DNA of 64,000 nucleotides from Telmatospirillum sp. (GTDB lineage: Bacteria > Pseudomonadota > Alphaproteobacteria > CACIAM-22H2): positions 1 through 64,000 of the forward strand of contig JADCGL010000010.1 of NCBI GenBank assembly GCA_020248985.1, written 5' to 3'. How positions within the stretch are numbered: the stretch's first letter is position 1; each line of letters starts with the position of its first letter. Shown here in pieces: positions 2-8,131 of the stretch. The notes beneath the pieces are model-generated. The model saw only the letters and a list, made by a program, of their open reading frames with translations. It was not told the DNA's origin and ran no database searches. Made by a program: the position numbers and the translations under genes.

Positions 2-832
2 ACCCGCAATCGCCGCGCGGTACATGAACGGCACGGCGTGTATCGCAATCTGAGCGTCTCGGGTGCGATGGGCCTGTTCGTCGGCGCACAGATCGATCTG
101 CGCCTTTTCCTGTCGCAATGGCGGCACGCTTATGCGGTGTTTCCGCGCGATCCGCGCTCGCGCCGCCCGAGCCTTCAGTTCTTCGATGCGGCCGGCCGCG
201 CCGTGCACAAGATCCATGCGACACCCGAGACCGACATGTCGGCATGGCAGGCACTTGCCGACGCGTTCGCGGACAACAACACGGATGCGGATGTCGACTT
301 TTCGCCGCTGCCAATGCGTCAGCCTGTGCGACCCGACGCCGAGATCGACGTGGCCGCTCTGCGTGCGGGCTGGGAATCCCTCAAAGACACACACGACTTT
401 TTCGGCCTGCTCAAGCGGCTCGGCGCGGGGCGCGTACAGGCGATGCGGCTCGTCGGCGAAGATTTGGCGCGTCCCCTCGTCGATGGTGCTGTTCGGCGCG
501 TCCTCGAGGCGGCCGCGACCGGGGCCGTGCCGATCATGGTCTTTGTGGGAAATGCCGGCTGCATCCAGATCCATACCGGTCCCATCGAGCGCCTGAAGGC
601 GACTGGCGAATGGTTCAACGTGTTGGATCCTGCCTTCAATCTCCATTTGCGCGAAAGCGGCATCGCTTCGACATGGCTTGTGCGCAAGCCGACGGCCGAC
701 GGCGTCGTGACATCCATCGAGGCATTCGACGATGCGGGCGAGACGATCGCGATGCTTTTCGGCAAACGCAAACCCGGCGAGAGCGAGCGCGCCGATTGGC
801 GCGCCTTGACCGCCGCTTTGACGGAGGCCTGA
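2..832 (+). CDS. hemS: Heme utilisation/degrading protein HemS (5'-truncated by window edge)
   Basis: This is the C-terminal part of a HemS/HmuS/ChuS-type cytoplasmic heme-binding protein, a family that accepts imported heme and degrades or traffics it. The frame is open to the first bases of the window and reads TRNRRAVHERHGVY before the first possible internal start (GTG at 38). The gene therefore begins outside the window; the visible 276 codons compare with about 345 residues for the family. The region around RLFLSQWRHAYAVF and the C-terminal FNLHLRE segment are typical of the second HemS repeat. The stop lies 3 bases before hmuT, so it is the first visible gene of a hem/hmu operon. Such operons are normally Fur- or Irr-regulated, but the promoter is not visible here. 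Confidence 0.86.
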   Translation, partial: TRNRRAVHERHGVYRNLSVSGAMGLFVGAQIDLRLFLSQWRHAYAVFPRDPRSRRPSLQFFDAAGRAVHKIHATPETDMSAWQALADAFADNNTDADVDFSPLPMRQPVRPDAEIDVAALRAGWESLKDTHDFFGLLKRLGAGRVQAMRLVGEDLARPLVDGAVRRVLEAAATGAVPIMVFVGNAGCIQIHTGPIERLKATGEWFNVLDPAFNLHLRESGIASTWLVRKPTADGVVTSIEAFDDAGETIAMLFGKRKPGESERADWRALTAALTEA

Positions 833-835
833 TCC

Positions 836-1723
836 ATGCGCGGTTTTCTTGTCGGGTTATTCTGCCTGTCGGCGGCGACGATCTGCCTGGCGGGCGAAAC
901 CTCCCAGCGCATCGTCGTTGCCGGCAGCGGCCTCACCGAAATCGTGCATGCGCTCGGGGCCGGCGACAGGCTTGTCGGGGTCGATACGACGAGCCTGTTC
1001 CCGGCGCGCGCAGGTGAGTTGCCGCAGATCGGCTATTTGCGGGCGCTGTCTGCCGAAGGGATCTTGTCGTTGCGGCCCAATTTGCTGCTCGCGACCGAGG
1101 ATGCCGGGCCGCCCGCCGTTCTGCAGCAATTGAGCAGTGCCGGGCTTGAGGTGCTGCGCGCGCGCGAAGGATTCGAGCCCGAGGCCGTTGCGGCGCGTAT
1201 CGAAATGGTCGGCCGCGCACTCGGCAAAGAGAGCGAAGCCGCCGCCCTGCAGGCAACGCTGCTTGCCGACATAGCCCGTGTGCAGGCAGCCCTTCCGGTC
1301 GCAGGACCCAAACCGCGCGTGCTGTTTTTGCTGGCGGCTGGGTCGGCGGTACCGATGGTTTCGGGCCGCGATACGGCGGCTTCGGCGATGATCGTCGCGG
1401 CAGGCGGGGTCAATGCCGTCGATGCCTATCGCGGATACAAGCCGCTGACGCCCGAAGCCATTGCGCTGGCAGCACCGGATTTCGTGCTGACGACCGAGCA
1501 GAGCCTCGTGGCGTTGGGCGGGCGCGAGGCGCTTCTCCGGCTTCCTGCCTTCGCGGTACTTGCACGATCGGGCGGATTGCGGGTTCTGTCCTACGACGCC
1601 GTCTATCTGCTTGGCTTCGGGCCGCGCACAGCCCATGCGTTGCGCGATCTCGCAGCCGCAATCCATCCTGCGCGCCAGCTGCCGGCTTTGCCGCATCGGC
1701 CGTGGCTGGAGGCGCGGTTTTGA
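836..1723 (+). CDS. hmuT: Heme ABC transporter periplasmic binding protein HmuT
   Basis: This is the periplasmic substrate-binding protein of a heme ABC importer (295 aa). The N-terminus has a cleavable Sec signal: MRGF, a hydrophobic stretch to about residue 18, then CLAGE. The mature protein has the helical-backbone binding fold of the BtuF/HmuT family, with an early VVAGSGLTEIVHALGAGDRL block and VGVDTTSLFP, as in other HmuT proteins. It is followed directly by the permease and ATPase genes, which defines the system as heme rather than a generic siderophore together with the upstream HemS. The end overlaps the hmuU start by 22 bases, suggesting translational coupling. Confidence 0.9.
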   Translation: MRGFLVGLFCLSAATICLAGETSQRIVVAGSGLTEIVHALGAGDRLVGVDTTSLFPARAGELPQIGYLRALSAEGILSLRPNLLLATEDAGPPAVLQQLSSAGLEVLRAREGFEPEAVAARIEMVGRALGKESEAAALQATLLADIARVQAALPVAGPKPRVLFLLAAGSAVPMVSGRDTAASAMIVAAGGVNAVDAYRGYKPLTPEAIALAAPDFVLTTEQSLVALGGREALLRLPAFAVLARSGGLRVLSYDAVYLLGFGPRTAHALRDLAAAIHPARQLPALPHRPWLEARF

Positions 1724-2730
1724 GGAGGGCGGCACCGCTCGTCGCCGCCGCCTTGCTTGCGATGGCTCTGGTGGGTGCGCTTGCCCTCGGTCCCTTGCGC
1801 CTGCCGGTCGGCGACGTGCTCGGCGCACTTGGCCAATTGGCGGGGCTGTCGCTGCAGGCGGACCCGCAAGCTTTGGCGGTCGTCGGTTCATTGCGTTTGC
1901 CGCGGGCCCTTTTGGCGGCATTGGCGGGGGCCGTGTTTGGCCTTGCGGGCGCAATGACTCAGGGGCTGTTTCGCAATCCGTTGGCCGACCCAGGCGTGCT
2001 TGGCATTGCCGGCGGCGCTTCGCTGGGTGCGGTGTCGGCGATATTTTTCGGCGTGGCTTCGCTGTCGGTCTGGGCATTGCCCGCCACGGGCTTCGTGGGC
2101 GGCTTGGCGGCGGCTCTGCTTGTGTCGCGTATCGCACGCAGCGACGGCCGAACGCCGGTCGCGACCCTGCTGCTTGCGGGCATTGCCGTCAACGCGTTGG
2201 CGATGTCGCTGACTGGAATACTCGTTTATGCGAGCGACGATCGACAGCTGCGCGATATCTCGCTGTGGCTGATGGGCAGCGTCGGCGGCGCGACGCCGCT
2301 GCGGATCTGGATTCTCGTGCCGTTCGCTGCGCTGCTGCTGGCCGGGCTGCCGTTTTTCGCGCGCGGGCTCGATGCGCTGATGCTCGGCGAACGCGAGGCC
2401 GTCCATCTTGGCATCGGCATCGAGACGCTCAAGGCCGGCGTGATTGGCTGCGTTGCGTTGGCGGTCGGGGCGGTCGTTTCCTGCGTCGGGCCGATCGGCT
2501 TTGTCGGGCTGGTTGTACCGCACATTGCGCGCATGATTCTGGGGCCGGGCCACCGGCTTTTGCTGCCTGTTTCCGCGCTGGCGAGTGCCGCATTGCTTGT
2601 CGCAGCCGACACGTTCGCCCGGCTCGCCGTCGCACCGGCCGAATTGCCCGTGGGCTTGGTGACGGCCGCGATCGGTGCACCTTTTTTCGCCGCGATGGTC
2701 GCCCGCAGCAAAAGGCGCCTTGCGCTATGA
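1702..2730 (+). CDS. hmuU: Heme ABC transporter permease HmuU (FecCD family)
   Basis: This is the inner-membrane permease of the heme importer, BtuC/FecCD family, 342 aa with multiple hydrophobic helices. Family hallmarks visible are LRLPRALLAALAGAVFGLAG near residues 55-75, FRNPLADPGVLGIAGGASLG near 90-110, and the C-terminal FVGLVVPHIARMILGPGHR block. The GTG start at 1702 lies inside hmuT; a TTG at 1720 in the same frame, next to the hmuT stop, is an alternative that removes six residues. The 3' end overlaps hmuV by four bases (ATGA). It should work with HmuT and HmuV in ATP-driven heme import. Confidence 0.9.
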   Translation: MAGGAVLRRAAPLVAAALLAMALVGALALGPLRLPVGDVLGALGQLAGLSLQADPQALAVVGSLRLPRALLAALAGAVFGLAGAMTQGLFRNPLADPGVLGIAGGASLGAVSAIFFGVASLSVWALPATGFVGGLAAALLVSRIARSDGRTPVATLLLAGIAVNALAMSLTGILVYASDDRQLRDISLWLMGSVGGATPLRIWILVPFAALLLAGLPFFARGLDALMLGEREAVHLGIGIETLKAGVIGCVALAVGAVVSCVGPIGFVGLVVPHIARMILGPGHRLLLPVSALASAALLVAADTFARLAVAPAELPVGLVTAAIGAPFFAAMVARSKRRLAL

Positions 2731-3509
2731 TCTCGGCGGTTCAAGTCGGTCTGCGTGTGGGCTCAAAGGGTTTGCTCGACGACGTCAATCTCGAAATCAA
2801 TGCCGGCACGTTCCTGGGGCTCGTGGGCCCAAACGGGGCCGGGAAATCGACGCTGCTTCGGCTGTTAGCGGGCGAGCAGCGCGCGACCCGAGGGGCAGTG
2901 TCGATCGCGGGCCGGAAGCTGGCGCAATGGTCCGGCGCCGAATTGGCGCGTCGCCGCGCGGTCCTGCCGCAGCAAAGTGCCGTGGCATTCGAGATCGCGG
3001 TTCGCGACGTTGTCGAACTCGGCCGATTGCCGCATGAAAGTCTGGTTTCGCGCGCGCAGAATGCGGCGGCCGTCGCGCGTGCTTTGCAGGATGCCGACGT
3101 CGCGCATTTGGAAACGCGCAGCTACGCAACGCTCTCGGGTGGCGAGCAACAGCGCGTTCAATTGGCGCGCGTCCTGGCGCAGATCGACGGCGTTCCTGCA
3201 CCCGCTTTGTTGCTCGACGAACCGACCGCCAGCCTCGATCTTTCGCACCAGCACCGTGTCTTGCAGACGGCGCGCCGCATTGCCGAGGCAGGCGCCGCAG
3301 TCGTCGCGGTCCTGCACGATCTTTTCACGGCATCGCTCTATTGCGATCGCATTGCGGTCATCTCGAAAGGGCGCATCGTTGCCGACGCGACGCCGACCGT
3401 TGCGCTGGACGAGGCGACCGTGAAGTCGGTCTTCGAAATGGATTCGCGATGGGTCGAGGCGGGAACGCGCAGGGCGCTTCTTGCGTTCAAAGGCGACGGC
3501 AGCCCTTGA
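2727..3509 (+). CDS. hmuV: Heme ABC transporter ATP-binding protein HmuV
   Basis: This is the ATPase subunit of the heme importer, 260 aa. It has Walker A GPNGAGKS (residues 34-41), the ABC signature LSGGEQQR, Walker B LLLDEP followed by TASLDL, and the switch histidine in VLHDL. I chose the ATG at 2727 because it overlaps the hmuU stop as ATGA; the reading frame stays open far upstream inside hmuT/hmuU, but that part is out-of-frame noise. It is the last recognised gene of the operon; the next gene begins 59 bases later and is of another type. Confidence 0.92.
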   Translation: MISAVQVGLRVGSKGLLDDVNLEINAGTFLGLVGPNGAGKSTLLRLLAGEQRATRGAVSIAGRKLAQWSGAELARRRAVLPQQSAVAFEIAVRDVVELGRLPHESLVSRAQNAAAVARALQDADVAHLETRSYATLSGGEQQRVQLARVLAQIDGVPAPALLLDEPTASLDLSHQHRVLQTARRIAEAGAAVVAVLHDLFTASLYCDRIAVISKGRIVADATPTVALDEATVKSVFEMDSRWVEAGTRRALLAFKGDGSP

Positions 3510-3568
3510 CGGGCGGGACAGGCGGGCCAACATCCTAACCAACCCTATTTGCGAAAGTGGAAATGCGC

Positions 3569-3952
3569 ATGGCAGATCGTAAAATCACCGTCCGTCCCGT
3601 CACGCGGCGTGCGGTTCTTGCCGTTGCTGCCGCAAGCCTCGTCGGCGCAAAAGCGGCACAGGCACATCACGGCTGGTCGGGTTTCGACAGCGGCCAGGTT
3701 TTGCGCCTCAACGGGCGCATTGCGGCGATGACTTTCGACAATCCGCATGGCGAGCTGCGTTTGACCACGGCCGGGGGCGAATGGTCGATCGAACTTGCAC
3801 CGCCCTCGCGTATGGTGGCGCGCGGTCTGTCGCGCGAGATGCTGGCCGTCGGCACCGAGGCGACGGTCGAGGGCTATCCGCACCGCCAGACGGCGCGGCT
3901 GATGCGCGCCGAGCGCATCGTCGTCGCAGGCCAGACGACCGAACTGCGCTGA
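3569..3952 (+). CDS. DUF6152 family exported protein
   Basis: A small exported protein (127 aa from the ATG at 3569; in-frame GTG 3557 and ATG 3563 would add 4 or 2 residues). The N-terminus reads TRRAVLAVAAASLVGA, a hydrophobic signal preceded by paired arginines that is Tat-like, with cleavage expected near AQA. The mature protein opens with HHGWSGFD, characteristic of DUF6152 proteins, whose function is unknown. It appears to be co-transcribed with the DUF6644 membrane protein 29 bases downstream. No catalytic motif was recognised. The two histidines at the mature N-terminus could bind a metal such as copper; that is inference. Confidence 0.72.
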   Translation: MADRKITVRPVTRRAVLAVAAASLVGAKAAQAHHGWSGFDSGQVLRLNGRIAAMTFDNPHGELRLTTAGGEWSIELAPPSRMVARGLSREMLAVGTEATVEGYPHRQTARLMRAERIVVAGQTTELR

Positions 3953-3981
3953 ACGGCAACGCGTACGCGGGCGGCTTCAGC

Positions 3982-4419
3982 ATGGAATGGCTGCTTGCCC
4001 TGCAGGGCTCGGGGCTGGCGCAAGCCTTGCGCGCCTCGACCTGGGCTTATCCGATCGTTGCGACCTTGCATGCTGTCGGCGCATCGCTCGCCGTCGGAGC
4101 CGTCGTGCTGATGGACCTGCGACTGCTCGGATGGGGAGCGGGCCTCGATCGCGCTTCCGTGCTGCGGTTTGCGCTGCCGGTGGCGCTCGCAGGCGCCGGC
4201 CTTGCGCTCTTTGCCGGTTTGGCGATGTTTTCCACTGGGGCTTCGCATTATGCGCGCAACCCGGCCTTTTTGTTCAAAATGGCGGCATTGGTTTTTGCGC
4301 TGTGGAACGCGCTCGCGTTCCACCGCCTTGCGGCCACAACTGGGCGTGTGCACGCCGCTGCCTCGCTGGTCGCTTGGCTTGGCGTCGTCACGGGCGGCAT
4401 CTTCACGGCGTATTTCTAG
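3982..4419 (+). CDS. DUF6644 family membrane protein
   Basis: A 145-residue membrane protein beginning MEWLLALQGSGLAQALR, with four apparent transmembrane segments. The segments carry histidines (ATLHAVGASLAVG in helix 1 and FHRLAATTG before helix 4). The opening and the VVLMDLRLLG motif are typical of DUF6644. I chose the ATG at 3982 because the conserved N-terminus starts there, although the frame is open further upstream. It follows the DUF6152 gene closely, and the two families are likely functional partners. Function is not known; a role in metal or heme handling would fit the upstream heme operon but is speculation. Its 3' end overlaps the convergent regulator gene by 17 bases. Confidence 0.72.
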   Translation: MEWLLALQGSGLAQALRASTWAYPIVATLHAVGASLAVGAVVLMDLRLLGWGAGLDRASVLRFALPVALAGAGLALFAGLAMFSTGASHYARNPAFLFKMAALVFALWNALAFHRLAATTGRVHAAASLVAWLGVVTGGIFTAYF

Positions 4420-5047
4420 AGTTCGCACCAGCCGCATCGTCGCTGCGGCTGGCCCACTCGACAAGGCGCACGAGAGCGGGCAGCGATTTCGACGCCGATT
4501 TACGCATGATCGCGGCGCGGTGGTTTTCGACCGTACGCTGGCTGATGCCGAGATCGGCGGCGATGTTTTTGTTGGCAACGCCGGCCACGACCATGTCGAG
4601 CACCTGCCGTTGGCGCGCCGTAAGGCTGTTCAGCTTGCGCACCGCGTCGGCGCAGTGGCTGCGTGCCTCTTCGCGCGCCGGCAAGGCGTCGAGGGCTGCG
4701 CGCACGGTCGCAACAAAGCGCGCGCACGAAACCGGCTTTTGCATGAAATCGACGGCGCCTGCTTTCATCGCTTCGACCGCCATCGGCACATTGGCTTGGC
4801 CCGTGAGCATGATCGCGGCGAGATGGTAGTCGGCCGCGTGGAGCTTCTGCACAAGCTCGAGCCCGCTCATGCCGGGTAGCCCCGCATCGACCACAAGGCA
4901 CCCGAATGCGCCCGACGGGTGGGCCGCAACGAAGGCCTCGCCGCTGTCGAATGCCTCGACCGCCAGGCCTTCGTCGGCCAAAACGGTGTGCAGAAGCGTG
5001 CAGACGTCGCGGTCGTCCTCGACGATATAGACGGCGTTGGCAGCCAT
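4403..5047 (-). CDS. FixJ/NarL-type response regulator
   Basis: A two-component response regulator of 214 aa. The N-terminal receiver domain shows YIVEDD (acidic pocket), the phospho-acceptor Asp54 in VVDAGLPG, LTGQ and MQKP (the conserved Thr and Lys). The C-terminal LuxR/FixJ-type helix-turn-helix is LTARQRQVLDMVV followed by NKNIAADLGISQRTVENHR. The start at 5047 is supported by GGAG about five bases upstream on this strand; a GTG two codons earlier is also possible. No sensor kinase is adjacent, so its partner and targets are unknown. It is transcribed convergently with the DUF6644 gene. Confidence 0.88.
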   Translation of the reverse strand: MAANAVYIVEDDRDVCTLLHTVLADEGLAVEAFDSGEAFVAAHPSGAFGCLVVDAGLPGMSGLELVQKLHAADYHLAAIMLTGQANVPMAVEAMKAGAVDFMQKPVSCARFVATVRAALDALPAREEARSHCADAVRKLNSLTARQRQVLDMVVAGVANKNIAADLGISQRTVENHRAAIMRKSASKSLPALVRLVEWASRSDDAAGANSRNTP

Positions 5048-5274
5048 GAGCACTCCGATCTGCCGGTTGTTCCAGCTATGTCGGAACAGGATACCGCCAA
5101 CCGTACGTATCTGCCTTGATGTGGCGCAAAGCGGTCGTGGCGTCCGCAAGGCCTTGCTGCGATTGCAGGTTTTCGCCTGCACTTTCGCGCATGGGTAGAT
5201 TCCGGCCCTTTTTTTCGCGGCGAATTTTGCGTGATCTTGCCGATGCGCCCGATTTTCCGAACCGGAGGAAAGCC

Positions 5275-5544
5275 ATGACCGACCCGAATCGCAGCGCGCA
5301 ATCTGACGACACGCAATTCGCCAATGACCAATTTGAACGCCAATCATTGCAGAGCGGCAACGATGCGCGCGACGCGGTGGCTGATCGCAACGCGACCGTG
5401 GCCCGGTTGCGCGCGCGGGCTGCGCGCTGCGCAGACCTTGCCGCCCAGGCGACCTCGCTTGGACTTGCAAACGAGTTCGATCTGCTCGCACGCGACTATG
5501 AGGCCGATGCTGCGTCGTTGGAAACAGCGGCGTTGCGGCGCTAG
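5275..5544 (+). CDS. Small hydrophilic protein of unknown function
   Basis: An 89-residue acidic-N-terminus, helix-rich protein. The ATG at 5275 is preceded by a strong GGAGGA ribosome-binding site six bases upstream, which decides the start within a longer open frame. The N-terminal half is polar and probably disordered. The C-terminal half (RLRARAARCADLAAQA to YEADAASLE) looks like a short coiled-coil or helical hairpin of a kind often seen in uncharacterised alphaproteobacterial proteins. It is read divergently from the response regulator at 4403-5047, separated by 227 bases that could hold both promoters. I do not recognise a function. Confidence 0.6.
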   Translation: MTDPNRSAQSDDTQFANDQFERQSLQSGNDARDAVADRNATVARLRARAARCADLAAQATSLGLANEFDLLARDYEADAASLETAALRR

Positions 5545-5588: not shown

Positions 5589-6824
5589 ATGAGCACGAGC
5601 CTGCTGCTTGCCTTCATTCTTGCGGCTCTGCTGCTGCAACTCGGCATTGGCTTCGGCTTTGGCCTGCGGCGCCGACTTCGATTCATGCGCGCGACGGTAC
5701 CGCTGACCGCCGGTTTTGCGCCTCACGAACCGCGCGGCGCCTGGGTGGGCTTGCGCCGCTTTCGCGTGGTGCGACGCGTTTTCGAAGATCCCGCCCAGTC
5801 GCAATGTTCGTTCCGTCTGGCACCCGTCGACGGGGCGGATTTGGTGCCGTCCGCACCGGGTCAATATCTTACGCTGGCGCTGAAGCTTACTGGGGCTTCA
5901 GCAAGCGATGCAGGGCGCACGATACTGCGCTGCTATTCGATCTCGGCGGCGCCCTCGGCAGCCGAGTTCCGCATCACGGTCAAACGGGCCGAGCGGCCGG
6001 CGGGCAAACCCAACCTGCCGCCGGGGGTTGCCACGACAATGCTCCTCGACCGCATTGCCGATGGCGACATGCTCGACGTCGAAGCGCCGGCCGGGCGGTT
6101 TATCTTCGATGCCGATGCCGCGTTGAGCAGCGTGTTCATTGCCGGCGGCATTGGGATCGCACCGATCCTGTGCATGCTTGAAGCGGCATTGGCTGCACCG
6201 TCAACATCGCACGCATTGCATCTCTATTACGGTGTTGCAAACGGTGCCGACCACGCGTTCAAAACGCGGCTCGGCGAATTGGCGGCGGCACATGAAGGAT
6301 TTCGCCAGACCGTTTGCTACGCCGCACCGCGCGTGGAAGAAAAAATCGGCATCGATTTCGACCATGCCGGCTTCATCGACATCGCCTTGCTGCGCGCCAC
6401 GCTGCCGGCCGGGCGCCATCTTTTCTACCTCTGCGGACCGCCCGGCATGATGGCGAGCCTGGTGCCGGCCTTGCGCGCCTGGGGCGTCGGCGAGGGCGAC
6501 ATCCGCACGGAATCGTTCGGGCCCTCGGCGCGCGGCGTCGAAGTGCCGGTGGCGGCGCGACCGTCTGTTTCGTTCGATGTGCAGTTCGGCATTGCCGGCC
6601 GCACGATCGCGTGGGACGGCCGCGATGCCAATCTGCTCGATTTTGCCGACCGGCATGGTGTGGCGCTGGGGTCCGGCTGCCGGACAGGGGCGTGCGGCGC
6701 TTGCGAGACGCGGCTCGTGTCGGGCCGTGTCGCCTACGCGCATGCGCCCGACCATGCGGTGGCGGCCGGCATGTGCTTGCTGTGCGTGGCGGTGCCGCTG
6801 TGCGACCTGCGGCTCGAGGGCTAG
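5589..6824 (+). CDS. Membrane-anchored NAD(P)H-type flavin/2Fe-2S ferredoxin reductase
   Basis: A three-domain electron-transfer flavoprotein of 411 aa. Residues 1-25 are a hydrophobic anchor. An FAD-binding FNR-type barrel follows, with RCYSISAAP, then a nucleotide-binding domain with GGIGIAPILCML and FYLCGPPGMM. The C-terminal plant-type 2Fe-2S ferredoxin domain has GCRTGACGACE and a final cysteine in MCLLCVAVP. The layout matches the phenol hydroxylase/CDP-deoxyglucose reductase (BenC-like) superfamily with a C-terminal ferredoxin. It probably takes electrons from NAD(P)H and passes them to the membrane protein three bases downstream and then to the octaheme cytochrome. The donor, acceptor and direction of flow are inferred. 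Confidence 0.8.
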   Translation: MSTSLLLAFILAALLLQLGIGFGFGLRRRLRFMRATVPLTAGFAPHEPRGAWVGLRRFRVVRRVFEDPAQSQCSFRLAPVDGADLVPSAPGQYLTLALKLTGASASDAGRTILRCYSISAAPSAAEFRITVKRAERPAGKPNLPPGVATTMLLDRIADGDMLDVEAPAGRFIFDADAALSSVFIAGGIGIAPILCMLEAALAAPSTSHALHLYYGVANGADHAFKTRLGELAAAHEGFRQTVCYAAPRVEEKIGIDFDHAGFIDIALLRATLPAGRHLFYLCGPPGMMASLVPALRAWGVGEGDIRTESFGPSARGVEVPVAARPSVSFDVQFGIAGRTIAWDGRDANLLDFADRHGVALGSGCRTGACGACETRLVSGRVAYAHAPDHAVAAGMCLLCVAVPLCDLRLEG

Positions 6825-6827
6825 GCG

Positions 6828-7403
6828 ATGCGTTTCGACCTCTTGCGCCACGAGGTCGTGCCGTTCTTCGGCGCGTTTGCCGCGCTCGTTGGGGCGGCGC
6901 TGTTGGCCGATGCGGTTTTGCATCTGGCCGATGCCGTGTGGGTCGGGCGCTATCTCGGGATTCTCGGCACGCTGCTGATCTTGGGATCGTTCGGCTATTC
7001 GCTGCGCAAACGCGGGTTCATTGCGGGCGCGCCCACACGATTGTTGCGCGTGCATGAATGGATGGCATGGGCAGGGTCCTGGCTGATCCTCGTTCATGCC
7101 GGCATCCATTTCGACGCGATTCTGGCTTGGCTTGCCGTCGCGGCGATGCTCGTCAACATCGCAAGCGGCCTTACCGGAAAATTCCTGCTGCGCCGCGCGC
7201 GAGTACGCCTCGAGGCGACGATCGGCCGTCTCGACGCGCTCGGATTGCCTGTGGCCGAGCGCGAAGCGCGGCTCCATTGGGATGCGTTTACGTTCGACAT
7301 TGTTCGCCAATGGCGCGCCGTGCACTACCCGATCACGCTTGCTTTCGCAACGCTCGCGGCCGGGCACATCGCCGCGATCTTCGTGTTCTGGGGCTGGCGA
7401 TGA
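6828..7403 (+). CDS. Predicted b-type cytochrome-like membrane protein
   Basis: A 191-residue membrane protein with about five hydrophobic segments. Histidines sit in or at the ends of several helices: VHEWMAWAG, LILVHAGIHF, AVHYPIT and AAGHIAAIF. The arrangement resembles four-helix b-type cytochromes or ferric-reductase-like domains, so two heme b groups are plausible, although no diagnostic family motif was recognised. It lies 3 bases after the reductase and overlaps the cytochrome gene by four bases (ATGA), so the three products should be made together. Likely role: a membrane relay between cytoplasmic reductase and periplasmic cytochrome. Confidence 0.65.
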   Translation: MRFDLLRHEVVPFFGAFAALVGAALLADAVLHLADAVWVGRYLGILGTLLILGSFGYSLRKRGFIAGAPTRLLRVHEWMAWAGSWLILVHAGIHFDAILAWLAVAAMLVNIASGLTGKFLLRRARVRLEATIGRLDALGLPVAEREARLHWDAFTFDIVRQWRAVHYPITLAFATLAAGHIAAIFVFWGWR

Positions 7404-8131
7404 AGCGGCATTGGGTGCTTGCCCTGATCGTCGTGAACCTCGCCGCCCTCGCGGTGTTGGCCGTTGCCTTGCCGCGCCAGATGCTGAGCCCAGGCGCTCT
7501 CGGCGAAGGCCATGCGGCCCTCGCGGAGGATTGTTTTGCCTGCCATGTGCCGTGGCACGGGAGTGCAGCCGACAAATGCATTTCCTGCCATGCGGTGGCG
7601 ACGATCGGCCTGCGCACGGCCAAAGGCCTGCCGCTCGCGCAAACGCCGCGCAAGCCGCCGTTCCATCAAGCGCTCGCTTCACCCGATTGTCTGGGCTGCC
7701 ACAGCGAACATGCCGTGCCGCGCCTGGCACCCGTCGCGCAATTCACCTTCGTGCATGCGCTGCTGAACCAAGGCACGTCGGCCAATTGTGCGGGCTGCCA
7801 CACGGCACCCGTCGGCGATTTCCATCGCAGTGCGGGTACCGCTTGTGCGCAATGCCACGTGCAGACCCACTGGAAGCCCGCGACCTTCGACCATGCGCGC
7901 TACTTTCCGCTCGCGGGCGAACACAATGCGCCGTGCGCCACCTGCCATGTCGGCAGCGTGACGTCGTCCTACACGTGTTACGGGTGCCACGAACATCAGC
8001 CCGCCGCGATCCTCGCCAAACATCGCCGCGAAGGCATTGCCAAGATCGACAATTGCGTCGCCTGCCATCGCGGCGCGCATAACGAGCGCGAAGGCGGGCG
8101 CGAACGGGGCCGGACACGCGACCGCGACTGA
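7400..8131 (+). CDS. Octaheme c-type cytochrome, membrane-anchored
   Basis: A 243-residue multiheme cytochrome c. Residues 5-24 form an uncleaved-looking hydrophobic anchor or signal. Eight CxxCH heme-binding motifs are visible: CFACH, CISCH, CLGCH, CAGCH, CAQCH, CATCH, CYGCH and CVACH. Extra histidines such as FDHARY and HEH can serve as distal ligands. Short spacing and repeats recall class III/cytochrome c7-like domains arranged in series. The ATG at 7400 overlaps the preceding stop. The C-terminal tail after the last heme is Arg/Glu-rich and probably disordered. It is the probable periplasmic electron exit or entry point of the trio; the partner beyond it is unknown. Confidence 0.85.
   Translation: MKRHWVLALIVVNLAALAVLAVALPRQMLSPGALGEGHAALAEDCFACHVPWHGSAADKCISCHAVATIGLRTAKGLPLAQTPRKPPFHQALASPDCLGCHSEHAVPRLAPVAQFTFVHALLNQGTSANCAGCHTAPVGDFHRSAGTACAQCHVQTHWKPATFDHARYFPLAGEHNAPCATCHVGSVTSSYTCYGCHEHQPAAILAKHRREGIAKIDNCVACHRGAHNEREGGRERGRTRDRD

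Follow-up and report, generated by a model that had tools for sequence, protein, structure and literature searches.

How might electrons cross from cytoplasmic NAD(P)H to the periplasm by way of three neighbouring genes? The question is raised by an operon in a stretch of 64,000 nucleotides from Telmatospirillum sp. (contig JADCGL010000010.1, positions 1 to 64,000; here called the window), whose products are a membrane-anchored NAD(P)H reductase of 411 aa (5589-6824, + strand), a five-helix membrane protein of 191 aa predicted to hold two b hemes (6828-7403, +) and an octaheme cytochrome c of 243 aa (7400-8131, +). A recheck of the sequence placed the three open reading frames, exactly to the base, where an initial annotation had put them, with a 3-base gap between the first two (6825-6827) and a 4-base ATGA overlap between the last two (7400-7403). 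That annotation had seen in them a redox relay. Our preferred reading, held with moderate confidence, is that the three products form a conduit that takes electrons across the membrane from NAD(P)H to the periplasm at low oxygen, with the membrane protein and the cytochrome (the b-c pair) as its core and the reductase as a co-inherited plug-in.

The reductase starts with a single hydrophobic helix followed by RRRLRFMR, and by the positive-inside rule this positive stretch suggests that the catalytic domains lie in the cytoplasm. Those domains are an FAD, an NAD and a C-terminal 2Fe-2S module, all over the Pfam cut-offs (FAD_binding_6, E 1.1e-4; NAD_binding_1, E 1.9e-18; Fer2, E 1e-9), with the flavin motif RCYS at 114 and GGIGIAP at 186. 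The 2Fe-2S ligands are C364-x4-C369-x2-C372 and C399, and all four cysteines are invariant among 14 relatives. By its three domains and cysteine ligands the protein is thus an anchored FAD/NAD/2Fe-2S reductase, as first annotated; its best PDB relatives are flavohemoproteins. The flavin-NAD-2Fe-2S domain order and the cysteine ligands recall the oxygenase-type reductases, such as phthalate dioxygenase reductase and PaaE, but the window enzyme has an N-terminal membrane anchor, and whereas the partner of the oxygenase-type enzymes is an oxygenase, the partner proposed here is a membrane cytochrome b.

The membrane protein reached no Pfam, NCBIfam or PDB sequence family at threshold, and a PDB profile search gave no match. 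Its AlphaFold model (pLDDT 87) consists of five long helical stretches, and an alignment of 42 relatives revealed four invariant histidines forming two HX13H pairs, H76/H90 on helix 3 and H166/H180 on helix 5, which gives a precise shape to the histidines noticed earlier in several helices. Distant homologues (275-312 aa), found in other families and in Emticicia (Bacteroidota), keep all four without exception. Helix 4 bears an SGxxG motif (S113-G114-x-x-G117). Positive residues average 4.5 and 9 in the loops on the H76/H166 side and are nearly absent from the loops on the H90/H180 side; loop charges and histidine positions together predict one heme b near each membrane face, and with them a complete path across the membrane.

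This architecture matches that described for the five-helix inner membrane proteins from PCC3 and PCC4 clusters, in which helix 4 has SGxxG and helices 3 and 5 each contain WX3HX13H, a predicted diheme-b signature whose HX13H pairs are also quoted for NOX/FRD (He et al. 2017, PMC5566968). All of it is present in the window protein apart from one tryptophan: W162-x3-H166 is there, but residue 72, ahead of H76, is not W, so that the first WX3H motif is missing. The short porin-less relatives in PMC5566968 are described by HX13H only, not WX3H. The conserved predicted diheme-b signature argues against a non-heme family, an assignment with which the relay idea would have failed.

Cytochrome b561 was considered as a family and rejected. 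The membrane protein scores 17.2 bits against PF01292 (cut-off 30.1), while a distant relative (L057) just passes at 30.8 bits; fold searches were weak, with cytochrome b561 as the top Foldseek hit at E 0.48 and, in a second fold comparison, at Z 5.2 amid unrelated helical bundles. Since a profile comparison with four true b561 proteins gave 0.3%, these faint Pfam and Foldseek signals do not make the protein a b561. Although it shares the HX13H pattern with the ferric reductase/NOX domain PF01794, the protein did not match that domain even with E values up to 1 allowed.

In the cytochrome, eight CxxCH motifs occur within 243 aa, where 5000 shuffles of its own residues gave two at most, and all eight are invariant among 43 relatives; the original count therefore stands. 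The N-terminal anchor looks uncleaved. Pfam matches over cut-off are Cytochrom_CIII, Cytochrome_C7 and Cytochrom_c3_2, and the protein falls in class III / c7 with 38.5 and 32 bits against cut-offs of 22.9 and 24.8. Its 30 residues per heme would fit a wire rather than an enzyme, wire-like cytochromes having 22-39 (PMC5566968). Furthermore, nine additional histidines are invariant, and each of the eight hemes could thus be ligated by a pair of histidines, in which case none would have an open site. With 243 aa and CxxCH motifs only, the protein is distinct from the octaheme oxidoreductases HAO, ONR and OTR. PDB searches returned weak partial matches only, to multiheme cytochromes and pentaheme nitrite reductases, and the AlphaFold model (pLDDT 61) was too poor for a fold search. 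Relatives differ in heme number (8, 10 or 12) through in-frame two-heme insertions (L026, L036, L042, L107, L114 and L117, among others).

No named system with exactly this set had been recognised at the outset. The exact trio still appears as a variant, but as far as the cluster descriptions in PMC5566968 go, the kind of membrane protein is already placed there beside multiheme cytochromes, its porin versions bearing the names PCC3 and PCC4. He et al. 2017 (PMC5566968) also describe shorter proteins with two HX13H whose neighbours are multiheme cytochromes without a porin, in clusters that usually include a further redox protein, and report mostly no significant sequence homology between short and long proteins. 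In a profile comparison with separate sequence sets on the two sides, the window family matched five long PCC3-like proteins at 98.1% (E 7.3e-14, 104 columns), and the short-protein profile, when run against genomes, found long proteins directly. Moreover, the locus L067 has the PCC3 layout: a membrane protein, a 24-heme cytochrome, a 27-heme cytochrome and an ORF with a porin-like C-terminal end, recognised by its last residues only. The profile match, the direct reach to the long proteins and the L067 layout place the window pair close to PCC3, as a compact relative without the porin.

What the window set has in common with the clusters that He et al. describe (PCC3, PCC4 and the porin-less 'other MHC') is a five-helix SGxxG/two-HX13H protein encoded beside a multiheme cytochrome densely packed with hemes, often accompanied by a further redox protein. 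The differences from the PCC3 type are clear: the window membrane protein has 191 aa against about 300 and is without the first-motif tryptophan, the cytochrome has 8 hemes against about 21, and the anchored FAD/2Fe-2S reductase is added as a third part. The outer membrane porin and extracellular multiheme cytochrome that mark a PCC3 complex are missing; no porin gene was recognised in the neighbourhood of the operon, and an ORF scan found one multiheme ORF in the window. Judged against the predictions set out in that paper, the system is an uncharacterised variant of the kind predicted in 2017 and not wholly new. The PCC3-like loci themselves, L067 (8194-15598), L069, L070 and L129, come from alphaproteobacteria and others and combine a membrane protein of about 300 aa with a 21-24-heme and a second multiheme cytochrome; L067, L069 and L070 adjoin ccm (cytochrome maturation) genes, and L067 and L070 are also near a 4Fe-4S/pyridine-nucleotide reductase gene.

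Whether the three genes belong together was addressed in related loci gathered via the cytochrome and via the membrane protein in whole genomes, the reductase never being a selection criterion. The three core genes were counted from profile or BLAST matches, and other neighbours were called by a simple codon-composition script, so that some are possibly misread. The b and c genes are adjacent in 70/70 loci (67 by strict limits, three by inspection); many loci were selected by the cytochrome, and the adjacency is therefore strongest for those found via the membrane protein. The reductase lies upstream in 32 of the 70 (28 by strict limits, plus four that are fragmented or diverged) and is absent from 38, where another donor must exist. 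Roughly half of the loci have the b-c pair either by itself or behind a cytochrome b561, which in five sphingomonad loci sits directly upstream, in the reductase's place. Among culturable relatives, Falsiroseomonas selenitidurans has the full trio, and Sphingopyxis granuli has the b-c pair together with a b561. The pair thus appears as the core and the reductase as not obligatory: the idea of a relay survives the tests of co-occurrence and heme family, and what has to be given up is the trio as its indivisible unit.

Where it is present, the reductase is nevertheless inherited with its neighbours. When presence of the reductase is mapped onto a maximum-likelihood tree built from the membrane protein, 9 changes are needed against a shuffled mean of 23.2 (0/500 shuffles as low; at least 5 changes are forced), and distances among the three proteins correlate at 0.86-0.94, values to which the shared ancestry of the hosts contributes. 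Within a sample of 398 genomes, 10/10 reductase matches starting at model position 1, anchor included, were immediately upstream of the membrane-protein gene, and nearly all unanchored relatives were located elsewhere. In two deep alphaproteobacterial loci a 30%-identical membrane-anchored reductase goes with a membrane protein that has the four histidines and with a cytochrome of 6 hemes. In Emticicia, the gene between those for the membrane protein and the cytochrome encodes an unrelated 4Fe-4S/pyridine-nucleotide oxidoreductase, and similar reductases are found beside the cytochrome-maturation genes adjoining PCC3-like loci. We read in these arrangements a modular theme, in which a reductant module may be joined to a diheme b and a multiheme c protein.

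The neighbourhoods of related loci yielded neither a universal fourth gene (the initial annotation had suggested looking for a recurring one) nor a recurrent terminal partner, and plasmid records held no membrane-protein homologue and one distant cytochrome only (Emticicia). A gene of the VIT family (Fe/Mn transporters) is directly beside the set in several loci, downstream in L005, L009, L010 and L013 and upstream in L018 and L065, assigned by Pfam in L005 and by sequence similarity in the other five; P-type cation ATPases, universal stress proteins and MgtC-like genes also recur nearby. On plasmid pEMTOL02 of Emticicia oligotrophica (L058, 599-7659), a 4-histidine membrane protein is accompanied by a 4Fe-4S/NAD(P) flavoprotein and cytochromes with 23 and 40 CxxCH. 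L068 (reverse strand, a whole contig of 4178 bases) carries a cyclic-nucleotide-binding/4Fe-4S/pyridine-nucleotide fusion beside a membrane-protein relative that passes PF01292, together with a four-CxxCH protein whose N-terminal part is FHA-like by eye.

In the conduit that we propose, the anchored cytoplasmic reductase would oxidise NAD(P)H at its FAD, and its 2Fe-2S cluster would pass single electrons to the cytoplasmic-side heme b (ligands H76/H166). The heme b on the periplasmic side (H90/H180) would take them next and pass them to the anchored octaheme cytochrome, from which they would reach a periplasmic acceptor; heme b binding, this outward direction, the partner protein and independence of quinones are what we infer. 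The b-c pair would be able to accept electrons from other donors, the reductase linking it to NAD(P)H, and the likely purpose would be to get rid of reducing power, or to route it elsewhere, when oxygen is low. A narrower version can be put forward only tentatively: a quinone-independent NAD(P)H:periplasmic-cytochrome oxidoreductase, on at low oxygen, that skips the quinone pool and bc1 via two b hemes to a multiheme cytochrome. If true, it would be a class of respiratory NAD(P)H dehydrogenase and a compact route, simple in its genetics, by which electrons from NAD(P)H could reach the periplasm without need of quinones; it would help explain how aerobic proteobacteria cope with oxygen loss, and would offer a small tractable model for the PCC3/PCC4 membrane proteins of extracellular electron transfer.

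The b-c pair could also be a quinol dehydrogenase that feeds periplasmic acceptors, with the reductase as a side branch, reducing quinone for example. CbcL/Cbc and NapC/CymA use b- and/or c-type hemes to carry electrons from inner membrane quinol to the periplasm, and the window proteins resemble them in that path; however, they are encoded by separate b and c genes, do not belong to the NapC/NirT family and adjoin an NAD(P)H-type input module. Loci without reductase are as common as those with it, the five sphingomonad loci have a b561 in its stead, and quinone exchange has been proposed for related membrane proteins (He et al., PMC5566968). Against this, the anchored form of the reductase occurs only beside the b gene in the 398-genome sample and is co-inherited with it, which fits direct contact better than an indirect one, and we consider the quinol dehydrogenase rather unlikely.

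A dedicated periplasmic reductase of metal (iron or manganese) or of an oxidant, serving for instance metal uptake or detoxification, is favoured by the VIT-family neighbours and by the heme-uptake genes that lie some 2 kb before the operon in the window, as they do in two relatives. Yet the VIT neighbours concern 6/70 loci, a minority, and the nine extra histidines of the cytochrome could fill all eight hemes, so that this function is very unlikely. Least probable of the readings that we weighed is electron uptake from the periplasm to NAD(P)+ or quinone. An inward direction has been hypothesised for PCC3 in iron oxidisers (PMC5566968), and distant homologues of the window proteins do occur in PCC3-like clusters, but there is no porin or second multiheme cytochrome nearby and no MtrB/PioB porin passed the search thresholds in the genome. 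FAD/NAD/2Fe-2S reductases, moreover, normally run outward from NAD(P)H, as established for the oxygenase reductases, and the low-oxygen box of the family suggests use under excess reductant.

Fre-MsrQ-MsrP and the NOX/ferric reductases lead electrons from a cytoplasmic flavin reductase through transmembrane b hemes to the outside of the cytoplasm. The proposed feeding of transmembrane b hemes by a flavin reductase is the same, and HX13H pairs are shared with NOX/FRD; their outputs are a molybdoenzyme, oxygen or iron, whereas here the output is a multiheme c, and PF01794 is not matched. DUF4405 and FezC membrane proteins, which also have conserved histidines, bind heme b, the former associated with flavinylation and the latter with ferrosomes (PMC11334425). 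The window family differs in being tied to multiheme cytochromes, and neither the window protein nor its relatives had a significant DUF4405 match.

The link to low oxygen comes from the family. A TTGAYN4RTCAA box (at most 1 mismatch) lies within 160 bases upstream in 16/58 dereplicated loci against 15/332 control upstream regions (p 4e-7, an optimistic value because the loci are related by descent), and these FNR/FixK-type boxes lie 37-108 bases from the start codon. The window itself has no strong FNR box close upstream of the operon. A candidate FNR/FixK-type box from the motif scan, TTGATGTGGCGCAA (5116-5129, +), has two mismatches to the FNR consensus and is weak on its own; its outer bases are kept in genome G003. 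The cytochrome b561 gene cybB of Sphingopyxis granuli TFA has an Fnr box (PMC7713065), and in the sphingomonad loci a b561, possibly the same gene, precedes the b-c pair. The Telmatospirillum sp. genome encodes a cbb3 oxidase, and searches of it for an MtrB/PioB porin, NapC or CCP/MauG had no hit at the thresholds used, so that cbb3 or a soluble cytochrome may be the end partner.

The candidate box is located between a small ORF and a divergent regulator gene. The ORF (5275-5544, +; 89 aa) has a strong ribosome-binding site, is conserved in an alignment with two same-genus relatives and ends 44 bases ahead of the reductase gene; its translation, read from a few bases inside the ORF start, had no Pfam match. 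It is probably the first gene of the operon in this genus. The regulator (4403-5041, -) is FixJ-like, with a receiver and a LuxR-type HTH (Response_reg, E 4.6e-26; GerE, E 2e-17), scores 200 bits against the NCBIfam FixJ cut-off of 255, and is a possible candidate for control of the operon. Farther upstream, heme-uptake genes (38-3506, +) encode a HemS/HmuS-like protein, a periplasmic binding protein, a FecCD permease and an ABC ATPase. This neighbourhood is conserved in two same-genus genomes (L063 and L066), and the genes may provide the heme that a complex with ten hemes needs, or their presence may be a coincidence. Positions 3557-4419 (+) encode a DUF6152 protein and then a small multi-helix membrane protein without Pfam match, both conserved in same-genus relatives.
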